From assembly GCA_030123605.1 (NCBI GenBank), contig CP126123.1:1592001-1656000 (forward strand): a stretch of 64,000 nucleotides of DNA. The letters run 5' to 3'. Source of the stretch: Nitrospira sp. Lineage in GTDB: Bacteria > Nitrospirota > Nitrospiria > Nitrospirales > Nitrospiraceae. Positions 1-3,154 of this stretch are shown here, piece after piece. The stretch's first letter is position 1, and each line of letters begins with the position of its first letter. Made by a program: the position numbers and the translations under genes. Under the pieces are notes generated by a model. It did no database searches and had not been told where the DNA came from. It worked only from the letters and a program-made list of their open reading frames with translations.

Positions 1-762
1 CAGAATCAGCAGATCTTCCGGACAGAGTCCCATGACTGTTTTGACTGGCAGATGAACCGGCTTCAACCGACTCCAAAACACGCTTCGATCGAGACGGAAC
101 CCAAAGTGGCGACGGGTCATGATCCACTGGAGATCCACGGCGACAATGCCGTTCCTTTTTTGGAAAAAGTGATAGGGTTCCTCCGACTCTTGGTCACCTT
201 CCATATCAGAGCTGGTAAGCTGATACCCTAGCGACCACAGGACCTGCCTGGCCTGGGGAATCGATCCTTGATCGACGATCAAATCCACGTCGGCGCATTC
301 ACGCAAACCGAGATCGCCATAGGCGGTCTGGGCAAGCGTGACGCCTTTGAAGGGAATGGCATGGACTCCCTTCGCCGCCAACGCATCGAGCACCGCCACG
401 AGTTCCTTGGCCAGCAATGTGTTCAGTAGTGCGTTCGCCTGAATGTGCCGGCGAAAGGCCTCGTGAACGGCTGAGGGTATCGCCGCAGGACAAATCGCAA
501 CCAGATTGCGATACACCAACGGCGCCACTCCGTGGTCCTTTGAGAGACGCCAGACCAATTCCCAATCGGCAATCTCATCAGCCAGGTCCGTCACTTCCAC
601 TCGAACAAACTCATTGATCGTCGTCCGTGCACAGAGCACGAGCAGCCGTCCCTCACGATGCATCTGAGAGAGTCCGGACGACGGAGCCATCCTTTTAGGC
701 AAGGGAACCATTGTTTGAGAACGCTTCCAACGTGCGGCCCGCGACATCAATTGTTGCCCCAT
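1..762 (-). CDS. NTP_transf_5-like nucleotidyltransferase, C-terminus beyond window edge
   Basis: The gene starts at an ATG at 762, two bases past the end of the kinase gene, and reads open to base 1, so about 254 residues are visible. Residues near 135 read IPFKG, followed by a YGD-x-x-LR stretch and a DVDLIV motif near 157 with the paired aspartates expected to bind metal; PEDLLIL lies at the edge. This pattern matches the uncharacterised nucleotidyltransferase family that accompanies HPr-kinase-like enzymes in lasso-type peptide clusters, where some members are reported to add nucleotide or phosphate groups to the peptide. The tight coupling with the kinase and precursor suggests a tailoring role; the substrate is inferred. 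Confidence 0.8.
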   Translation of the reverse strand, partial: MGQQLMSRAARWKRSQTMVPLPKRMAPSSGLSQMHREGRLLVLCARTTINEFVRVEVTDLADEIADWELVWRLSKDHGVAPLVYRNLVAICPAAIPSAVHEAFRRHIQANALLNTLLAKELVAVLDALAAKGVHAIPFKGVTLAQTAYGDLGLRECADVDLIVDQGSIPQARQVLWSLGYQLTSSDMEGDQESEEPYHFFQKRNGIVAVDLQWIMTRRHFGFRLDRSVFWSRLKPVHLPVKTVMGLCPEDLLIL

Positions 763-763
763 G

Positions 764-1804
764 TCAGTTCTCCATCCTTGCTTGGCACCGTTCCAAGAGC
801 GGCCCCACCAACCGCGGCAAATCCAGCACATCACGGCCGAAGTAGAGCCGATAACAATCCGCCTGCTCAACCAACCGCACAAGCGCTTGAAACTCCCGGC
901 GCGCCACCTCGGCGTCATACACCAACAGGGAATGCGGAAGGATCATCGCCAACGCCTGCTTCTTCGACAGGGATTCAAGGCAACTGTGGGGGGCGTCAAC
1001 CACCTGAGGAAACAGGATGACTGCAGCTTCACAGGGTTTTCCCAACGGAGCCGGATACAGTTCCTCTGCGTGAAAATAGCGCTTAGGACCTCCTGTGCGA
1101 AGAATGGACGGCGGCGCGTCACGCAATTCGGGAAAGAACGATACGGTGTGATCAGTCACATTGATCTTGAGCGGATAGGGCAGAATCTCCACACGAGATC
1201 CGTTCAATCGAAAAAACGGATGGTCGTCGGAGAGGTAGCGGTACCCCGACCTGAGGAGGGACAAGAACGACGTGGTCTTCCCCCGTCCACTGAACCCAGG
1301 AATCAGTACCCCTCGTCCGTGTTGTTCGAGTGCTGTCGCATGAAACGTATAGAGCCCTCGCCGCTTCAACAGTTCGGTCATGGCGAAATGCACAAAACTC
1401 ACGCGGATGTCCGATGTCATTTCTTCAGGCCGCACCAGGTAACCGTGAACGGACTGCGTAGCCCCATCGACGACCACGACCCCCTCCCCGTGGAAGTCGG
1501 CAATCAGCAACCCGCGGTCAGCATAGATATCGCAGAGCCAGGTCACCTGCCGGTCGACTCCGTCCACAAGTCCGGAGCCCTCGTACAATCGTATGGCGGA
1601 CGCGGAGGGCTGCACCGGCACAACCTCGCGCCGGTGGACCGCATCGAATTGCATCGTCATCGGCCGGCCATCATGACTCTTGCACTCAAAGTGGTGGAGT
1701 AATGCCGCGACGGAAGCGGCCAATGGGGTGGAATTGGTGACGAATTTCATCTCGATGCCGTGGACTGAGAAGCGACACTCGTTCACCGCAATCGTCAGCG
1801 ACAT
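764..1804 (-). CDS. HPr kinase-like peptide-tailoring kinase
   Basis: The 346-residue protein has a Walker A motif GFSGRGKTT near residues 170-178, a histidine just before it (TFHAT) and a downstream LSDDHPFF acidic motif, the layout of the HPr kinase/phosphorylase C-terminal domain. I chose the ATG at 1804 because an AGGGAG ribosome-binding site lies six bases upstream; ATGs at 1825 and 1846 are in frame but less well placed. Related kinases in lasso-peptide clusters phosphorylate the precursor. Here the gene sits directly downstream of the 38-residue precursor and upstream of a nucleotidyltransferase, so a role in modifying that peptide is likely but inferred. A true HPr kinase is less likely because no phosphotransferase gene is nearby. 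Confidence 0.75.
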   Translation of the reverse strand: MSLTIAVNECRFSVHGIEMKFVTNSTPLAASVAALLHHFECKSHDGRPMTMQFDAVHRREVVPVQPSASAIRLYEGSGLVDGVDRQVTWLCDIYADRGLLIADFHGEGVVVVDGATQSVHGYLVRPEEMTSDIRVSFVHFAMTELLKRRGLYTFHATALEQHGRGVLIPGFSGRGKTTSFLSLLRSGYRYLSDDHPFFRLNGSRVEILPYPLKINVTDHTVSFFPELRDAPPSILRTGGPKRYFHAEELYPAPLGKPCEAAVILFPQVVDAPHSCLESLSKKQALAMILPHSLLVYDAEVARREFQALVRLVEQADCYRLYFGRDVLDLPRLVGPLLERCQARMEN

Positions 1805-1915
1805 CACGTTCTCCCTTGCAGTCATGCAGTCGATTGTATCGACCATGCCTATGACCCGGAAGCCGGTCGGTATTCGTCACCGACCGGCTCACGGCCCTCA
1901 CTGAAAACGGTTACC

Positions 1916-2032
1916 CTACTTAGGCTCACACCATCTTCCACAGCGGGAGAGAGCGATCGCCGTCACGTCGCGGAGTAATTCATGCTTCACGAGTTCCGGC
2001 TTCGCATACTGCTCTTTTTTCTGCTGATCCAT
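1916..2032 (-). CDS. RiPP precursor peptide, 38 aa, lasso-type leader
   Basis: This small ORF has a near-perfect Shine-Dalgarno (AAGGAGGTGA) seven bases before the ATG at 2032. Its leader carries Tyr9, Pro12, Leu14 and Thr24, the exact spacing of the Y-x2-P-x-L ... T pattern bound by PqqD-like recognition proteins and cut by B2 proteases two residues after the Thr. Cleavage there would give the core IALSRCGRWCEPK. That core has two Cys flanking GRW and only one acidic residue, Glu11, which is too far from the N-terminus for a normal 7-9 residue lasso ring. The conserved Gly four residues after the Leu is Glu here. I infer a ribosomally made modified peptide of unknown final structure. Confidence 0.72.
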   Translation of the reverse strand: MDQQKKEQYAKPELVKHELLRDVTAIALSRCGRWCEPK

Positions 2033-2038
2033 TCCGAC

Positions 2039-2356
2039 TCACCTCCTTTCAGTTTGAAGTAACCCTTCCTGTTCCAACTGCGCCACCAAGTCGAGAAGAT
2101 CGTCCTGCGCTTGCCGAACGGATACGTCGAACCTCTCGCACACCGCTGAGAGGATCCGATCCAATGGACGGTCCCCTCCGCAAAGATTCCAAATCGCTGA
2201 CCCGGCGGCATTCAACGTGTAATAGCGGCCGGTGACGAGGTTGAGTAAGACACTTTCACCGTCTACCAGGCAACTATGGACGCCTTCGTTCTGCTTGGGA
2301 AACACCTCGGACAAAGAATCAACACGCACGTTCCACTGTCGGGTTGTGACCGCCAT
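2039..2356 (-). CDS. PqqD-like RiPP recognition element protein (lasso B1-type)
   Basis: The 105-residue protein has the PqqD fold signature: LLNLVTGRYYTLN followed by a helical AAGSAIWNL stretch and a C-terminal DLVAQLEQEGLL helix. The ATG at 2356 is preceded by GAGGAGG with five bases of spacing, which decides the start over the longer ORF from 2479. Proteins of this family bind the leader of a RiPP precursor and deliver it to the protease or other enzymes. The stop lies seven bases before the precursor start, so the two are almost certainly co-translated. Confidence 0.85.
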   Translation of the reverse strand: MAVTTRQWNVRVDSLSEVFPKQNEGVHSCLVDGESVLLNLVTGRYYTLNAAGSAIWNLCGGDRPLDRILSAVCERFDVSVRQAQDDLLDLVAQLEQEGLLQTERR

Positions 2357-2710
2357 GGGAACCTCCTCAATCAGATGATGAGAAACAGACGGATCGTCAT
2401 CACACAGGCTTGTACTCCGACACGATATCGGCTGGATACGTTTGAACACCGGAAGATCGATATCCTTGATCGTCACCATGTAGAGGCGAACATATCGTCA
2501 TCGCGTCTGTTTCGCTATTCCCAGTGAGGCTGGACGACACCTCCATTTGGGGGAGTTTCGACCTCTGCCTGCGTACTCACACACGGAAACGGCAGTGGAA
2601 AGAGAGGGTGAAGGGATAGACACCGGCAAGCGTCAAGGCCGAGCCGCCAGGAATCCGCGGCGGGAATCGACCGAACGATCGGGAATGACCGGGAAAAGGT
2701 GAAACTGGAC
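2357..2710. other. gene-free gap inside the RiPP cluster
   Basis: The 354 bases between the recognition-protein gene and the B2 protease gene contain no ORF with a credible ribosome-binding site on either strand and no clear hairpin or promoter. An in-frame extension of the PqqD-like ORF to 2479 exists but lacks a ribosome-binding site. A promoter for the PqqD-precursor-kinase set may lie here. Confidence 0.4.
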
Positions 2711-3154
2711 TTACGGGAAATCGGACGGCTGGCCGGGATCTGGGAGAGGAGCGGGTGGAAATGCGACCGTCACGGTGAAGAATTGCCAGTACCGAGAAGG
2801 TTCCATGAAATCTCGCCCATCCAACATCAACCAGGCATGGCCCTCAAGCCGTTGGTTGAGCTTCATCACCCCGCAGCGGAATTGAACCGCGAGACCACAT
2901 CGACGGGCAAATCGATAAAGTGTCAGGGCACGCGGAAAACAGTTTCCCTTCGGATTGTACGGAAACAGCGCAAGCCAACGATCGACATAGTAAACGACGT
3001 CTTCCATTGTCTCCTGAACCGGCTCCCCTGCGACCGGATTACAGGTCAACCACCTCAGCAACTGCGGAAGACTCATCACCTGCAACGCGAAACGGATTAA
3101 AAACACTGCCATGCCGGTGCCGATGATCAACCGATATCTCCTGATCAGGGCCAT
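2711..3154 (-). CDS. lasso-type B2 leader protease (transglutaminase-like)
   Basis: The C-terminal half carries the cysteine-protease layout of lasso B2 proteins: Cys72 in GNCFPRAL, His106 in EGHAWL and Asp112 in LDGRDF. The N-terminal 45 residues are hydrophobic and may be a membrane-associated segment. The ATG at 3154 gives 147 residues, the usual B2 size; an in-frame extension would run into purF, so an upstream GTG/TTG start cannot be excluded. The enzyme should cut the leader off the precursor encoded downstream. The gene begins 80 bases after purF on the same strand, so it could be read from the purine operon. Confidence 0.82.
   Translation of the reverse strand: MALIRRYRLIIGTGMAVFLIRFALQVMSLPQLLRWLTCNPVAGEPVQETMEDVVYYVDRWLALFPYNPKGNCFPRALTLYRFARRCGLAVQFRCGVMKLNQRLEGHAWLMLDGRDFMEPSRYWQFFTVTVAFPPAPLPDPGQPSDFP

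Follow-up and report, generated by a model that had tools for sequence, protein, structure and literature searches.

A purF-linked RiPP locus of Nitrospira with predicted lasso-type leader processing, no lasso cyclase, and a probably linear, phosphorylated core

Lasso peptides are defined by their cyclase. BsfK, the B1-assisted kinase of a lasso cluster, phosphorylates Ser3 of the precursor core while the leader is still attached, and the B1 and B2 proteins of bsf then free the core in vitro with no cyclase present (PMC10368454). For the nucleotidyltransferase homologue of pseudomycoidin, transfer of a hexose to phosphoserine and prior transfer of a nucleotide are both left open in a review (PMC9266682). 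A search of the literature outside most subscription journals returned no description of the Nitrospira system considered here.

The system lies in a complete 4.3 Mb Nitrospira genome. The window is the whole 64,000-nt stretch that was analysed, and coordinates are positions in it unless prefixed C1 (the same genome) or L (a fetched locus). The first-pass annotation had described contiguous genes for a B2 protease, a PqqD-like protein, a precursor, an HprK-like enzyme, and a nucleotidyltransferase. All five are found on the minus strand, adjoining purF (window 4665-3235), in the order B2, PqqD/RRE (B1), 38-aa precursor, HprK-like kinase, and nucleotidyltransferase (Table 1). The last gene spans C1:1591467-1592762, its final 533 bases lying to the left of the window, and is followed on that side by a redoxin, a small protein, and a protein judged MBL-like by eye. 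Within the genus, the genes run purL-purF-B2-PqqD-precursor(s)-HprK-NTase-redoxin with little variation; the arrangement in other genera is PqqD-precursor-HprK-NTase-B2-ABC transporter. No exporter gene was found in the own-genus clusters, and an ABC transporter is present in many relatives. No radical SAM enzyme, such as sactipeptide and other radical SAM RiPP systems carry, was recognized among the cluster genes and their neighbors, and the ATP-grasp ligase typical of graspetides is absent beside purF in this genus. The redoxin was rejected as a member of the system because it also adjoins purF in genomes without it.

Table 1. Features of the purF-adjacent cluster (window positions unless prefixed)
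Feature	Position	Strand	Evidence
B2 leader peptidase (Transglut_core3), 147 aa	2711..3154	-	NF033537, PF13471
PqqD-type RRE / B1 protein, 105 aa	2039..2356	-	PF05402, TbiB1 match
GAAAGGAGGTGA, strong ribosome binding site just before precursor	2033..2050	-	Sequence
Precursor leader MDQQKKEQYAKPELVKHELLRDVTA	1958..2032	-	Near-invariant positions, purifying selection
Precursor core IALSRCGRWCEPK with its stop codon; Ser4 predicted as phosphosite	1916..1957	-	
HprK-like putative peptide kinase, 360 aa	764..1846	-	TIGR04352 below cut-off, motifs, predicted fold
Nucleotidyltransferase NTP_transf_5, 431 aa	1..762, on to C1:1591467	-	PF14907

Two further sets of genes in the same genome were considered as parts of the system and set aside. 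At L012:6495-10099 (C1:1192495-1196099), a second PqqD (C1:1192618) is accompanied by two radical-SAM-like ORFs and an HprK-like ORF; this is a separate set in which no B2 was seen. At L139:6147-8056 (C1:3452146-3454055), two overlapping ORFs occur at a sub-cut-off match to TIGR04187 (ATP-grasp peptide maturase), and this ATP-grasp protein (C1:3452305) is far away, with no precursor identified near it.

The B2 protein scores 44.0 bits against the lasso leader-peptidase model NF033537 (cut-off 33) and matches PF13471 at 3e-17. Its candidate catalytic residues are a Cys (GNCF), a His (HAW), and an Asp (LDGRD), and the H[AS]W motif is kept in 37/37 relatives. The RRE matches PF05402 (67.6 bits, 1.2e-18), is closest to lasso PqqD proteins, and has the lasso B1 protein TbiB1 (5v1u, 4.3e-10) as its best PDB match. 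An in-frame ATG at 2479 would extend it to 146 aa, and the likely start is 2356, where its homologues begin. Sequence searches of the PDB returned no solved relative of B2 or of the nucleotidyltransferase.

The kinase matches TIGR04352 at 1.7e-15, its 57 bits falling well below the cut-off of 200, and is predicted to adopt an HprK/PEPCK-type fold. It would be 346 aa long from the start site that most homologues use. A P-loop (GFSGRGKT) and SDD are present, the P-loop and DD motif occur in all 42 homologues compared, and in the alignment the His, P-loop Lys, and DD motif stand in an enzyme encoded beside a precursor, as in kinase-tailored lasso-type RiPPs. A scan of one genome for each of 84,980 species yielded 55 kinase loci at ≥43% identity, all Nitrospirota by name except one labelled Nitrospinota; among the first matches, the next best from other phyla reach 25-28%. 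The kinases of the cyclase-bearing clusters in the family form a separate clade (100/100 support, with some long-branch placements unsure). The nucleotidyltransferase matches PF14907 at 1.2e-66, and its structural model resembles, with weak scores, the NTase folds of MenT1, LnuA, FKRP, and ANT(2'').

The precursor leader carries Y(-17), P(-14), L(-12), and T(-2), spaced exactly as in the Y-x2-P-x-L ... T rule to which it had been assigned and as would suit a discrete RRE; position -8 is Glu. Together with the RRE and a B2 score above the NF033537 cut-off, this spacing supports the original proposal of lasso-type leader processing. Precursors were found in 83/100 fetched loci (some contigs having been fetched twice), and by profile search 63/175 family genomes have one, in almost every case adjacent to the RRE gene. 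The absence of the small ORF from related clusters, which had been named as grounds for rejecting the proposal, was therefore not seen. Among 108 distinct precursors, Thr-2 and Pro-14 are invariant, Tyr-17 occurs in 107, Arg-5 in 107, and His-9 in 106, and Leu-6 is also nearly invariant; the Y(-17)..P(-14)..T(-2) spacing is kept in every leader. The ribosome binding site of Table 1, or a close form of it, precedes nearly all precursors that directly follow the RRE gene. In own-genus leader codons, N/S is 0.35 against a neutral expectation of 3.17, indicating purifying selection, and this ratio and the recurrence of the precursor in the family argue that the locus is not a chance ORF. Core codons 1-6 give 1.06 against 2.56 expected. 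The core tail is hypervariable, and since tails were compared without gaps, its ratio is only qualitative.

The core has no acid at positions 7-9 and only Glu11 elsewhere, as previously reported, and the relatives have no consistently placed ring acid: an acid at 7-9 occurs in 11/27 own-type cores and in 16/54 type-A cores elsewhere, and 10/27 own-type cores lack any acid. The conserved core feature, unmentioned in the earlier reading, is a serine at position 3 or 4. In other genera, 52/54 type-A cores carry Ser3, where shuffling gives a mean of 9 and at most 22. Ser4 is present in every precursor listed for own-genus loci; the own-type class (n = 27) was selected by Ser4, making its 27/27 count circular. 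Own-type cores mostly begin I-[QA]-L-S-R-V, and five of the 27 end in Ser. Precursors at two other loci, L132:7846-8244 and L134:8757-8933 (a distant Nitrospirota genome and G115), lie near HprK, PqqD, B2 (L134), and a radical-SAM-like protein; two of them contain FFGxFSP.

That no cyclase gene accompanies the cluster had been noted up to the window edge. The check to the left of base 1 was run, and no cyclase occurs there for 9.4 kb, which holds the redoxin and other unrelated genes; the other ground named for rejection, a cyclase just downstream, thus did not arise either. In the complete genome, no lasso cyclase exceeds its NCBIfam cut-off, the best match to NF033535 being 276 bits against 525. 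The genome encodes five full-length asparagine synthetases (AsnB), all starting MCG, one of them after a short in-frame extension. In the lasso cyclases of the family, which score above this best match, Ser replaces the N-terminal Cys (MSG in 16/17 loci, the start of the 17th being unclear). The lasso cyclase HMM detects 0/100 fetched loci (some contigs counted twice) versus 17/17 control loci. The one strong match, at L083, proved to be a synthetase of MCG type some 4 kb distant, and the AsnB-like matches of about 476 aa beside clusters are PurF, matched in its amidotransferase part only; neither was retained as a cyclase.

Losses of the system in relatives bear on the role of the nucleotidyltransferase. 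In four own-genus loci (L061, L063, L251, and L252, the last two read only to 1.5 kb beyond purF), the precursor, kinase, and B2 are absent, and the nucleotidyltransferase is kept with an altered D-x-D. This fits relaxed selection on the enzyme after loss of the pathway, as expected if it serves this pathway. G037 (L250:2932-3760), with a PurF 99% identical, has a broken B2 and a deletion running from RRE to kinase; the D-x-D is intact there, and the deletion is apparently recent.

The favored reading, to which we assign a probability of roughly 0.6, is a RiPP system without a cyclase that makes a linear phosphorylated core and either descends from kinase-bearing lasso clusters or is their sister. 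The RRE (B1) would bind the leader via Tyr(-17), Pro(-14), and Leu(-12), and with the leader still attached the HprK-like kinase would phosphorylate the conserved core serine (Ser4 here, Ser3 in other genera). The nucleotidyltransferase may then add a nucleotide or sugar unit, most likely on the serine phosphate, and B2 is predicted to cut after Thr(-2)-Ala(-1). This would yield a short linear peptide in which the head, I-[QA]-L-S-R, hardly varies and the tail is hypervariable; it may serve as a signal, an antimicrobial, or a ligand. The sequences themselves show which parts and motifs are conserved, how the leader is spaced, where the serine lies, and that a cyclase is missing. Every chemical step and the order of steps we infer, the BsfK work on Ser3, pseudomycoidin, and the predicted folds pointing to a linear peptide that carries a phosphate and, in addition, a nucleotidyl or glycosyl group. 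The linear phosphorylated or nucleotidylated peptide, one of several products first suggested, is the leading option. Against this reading count the distant relationship of the kinase to the lasso kinases of the family, its sub-cut-off score, the lack of an exporter in own-genus clusters, the acid at 7-9 in 11/27 own-type cores, and the type-B precursors of relatives, which mostly lack Ser3/4 and often lie beside a related kinase. The core serine could also be conserved for B2 cleavage and not for phosphorylation.

The first-pass annotation went too far, on sequence alone, in proposing a distinct RiPP class. Since the pair of kinase and nucleotidyltransferase is known from lasso clusters (pseudomycoidin and bsf), the system is better described as a cyclase-free variant of these unless its chemistry differs. 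A separate class is possible, though less probable than the variant. It would comprise linear peptides with lasso leader recognition and B2 cleavage, defined by serine phosphorylation and nucleotidyl- or glycosyl-transfer near the N-terminus, with ring closure, where it occurs, performed by an ATP-grasp pair in the type-B clusters of other Nitrospira genera.

One alternative is a true lasso or other macrolactam peptide whose ring is closed by a cyclase encoded away from the cluster; the five full AsnB homologues of the genome, Asp8 in nine own-type cores, and the canonical lasso clusters of the family lend it some support. Yet all five AsnB proteins keep Cys2 and none reaches the cyclase cut-off, so that a search for a cyclase elsewhere in the genome yields only MCG-type AsnB. 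By our own count, a cyclase-grade gene is present in only 6 of about 61 family genomes carrying the system. At 8-13 aa, the cores offer little length for a threaded ring, the present one has no acid at 7-9, and 10/27 own-type cores are without any acid. This is the least probable of the readings. Hardly more probable is a lasso cluster in decay, with its cyclase lost and no product made. Partial losses in relatives (purF-RRE-NTase only at L061 and L063) and the deletion scar in the close relative G037 are what decay would leave, but such real decay is visible and looks different: the leader is under strong purifying selection, the catalytic motifs are intact in 42/42 kinases, and the cyclase-free organization extends across the whole genus and relatives.

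It is equally improbable that the system belongs to a class of disulfide or otherwise Cys-crosslinked peptides with C-x(2-5)-C as its key feature. The Cys-Gly-Arg-Trp-Cys unit had drawn attention to this chemistry, and 12/54 type-A cores outside the genus contain C-x(2-5)-C. The unit is not supported as a general feature: the present genome is the only one in the genus to have it, and the other own-genus cores all lack the motif. An enzyme that would form a thioether (radical SAM or LanM-type) was not recognized in the cluster, and the neighboring redoxin keeps its place by purF where the system is absent.

A second, type-B module often occupies the same purF locus in other genera (L072:1682-13891, also L067, L070, L071, and L073-L079). 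It combines an ATP-grasp pair and PqqD with fatty-acid-hydroxylase-like proteins, in many cases an HprK, and precursors whose leaders are of lasso type. These leaders end in TG and are followed by KYxEK-like or GxSG cores, and the ATP-grasp pair gives sub-cut-off matches to ribosomal-peptide ATP-grasp models. The module looks like a lasso-leader graspetide system, and its presence at this locus suggests that one leader system is combined with different core chemistries.

That a conserved lineage retains leader recognition, peptidase, kinase, and nucleotidyltransferase with no cyclase suggests a tailoring half able to exist on its own, and such clusters would escape any search built on the presence of a cyclase. 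For nitrite oxidizers including Candidatus Nitrospira defluvii, the system yields a predicted peptide of known sequence (IQLSRVLDRTPA in Candidatus N. defluvii) that should be findable by mass.

HprK-related kinases of the HPr-rel-A and GAK-type systems (TIGR04352 and TIGR04355) are associated with PqqD-like proteins. The present kinase resembles them in being HprK-related but scores far below those cut-offs. The canonical lasso clusters of the family (L104-L120) share an RRE, in most cases a B2, frequently a distant kinase and nucleotidyltransferase, and YxxPxL...T leaders. They differ in their MSG-type cyclase, in leader Gly(-8), and in Asp at core position 8 or 9 in 10/10 precursors found, the leaders of which are YxxPxL..YGxIxKLT-like. 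Paeninodin and pseudomycoidin from Firmicutes likewise involve an HprK-like kinase, and pseudomycoidin also a nucleotidyltransferase that adds a hexose to the phosphate (PMC9266682, PMC8498205). In contrast to the Nitrospira system, where a C-terminal Ser is uncommon in own-type cores, their C-terminal Ser is phosphorylated and a cyclase is present. The bsf cluster of Bradymonas sediminis has a cyclase, an ABC transporter, Ile(-2), Gly1, and Asp8 (PMC10368454), whereas the Nitrospira system has Thr(-2) and Ser4 and neither cyclase nor ring acid. The two are alike in their discrete B1, B2, HprK-like kinase, and nucleotidyltransferase and in leader Tyr(-17)/Pro(-14)/Leu(-12), and the bsf kinase, which acts on core Ser3 with the help of B1, parallels the step predicted here (PMC10368454).
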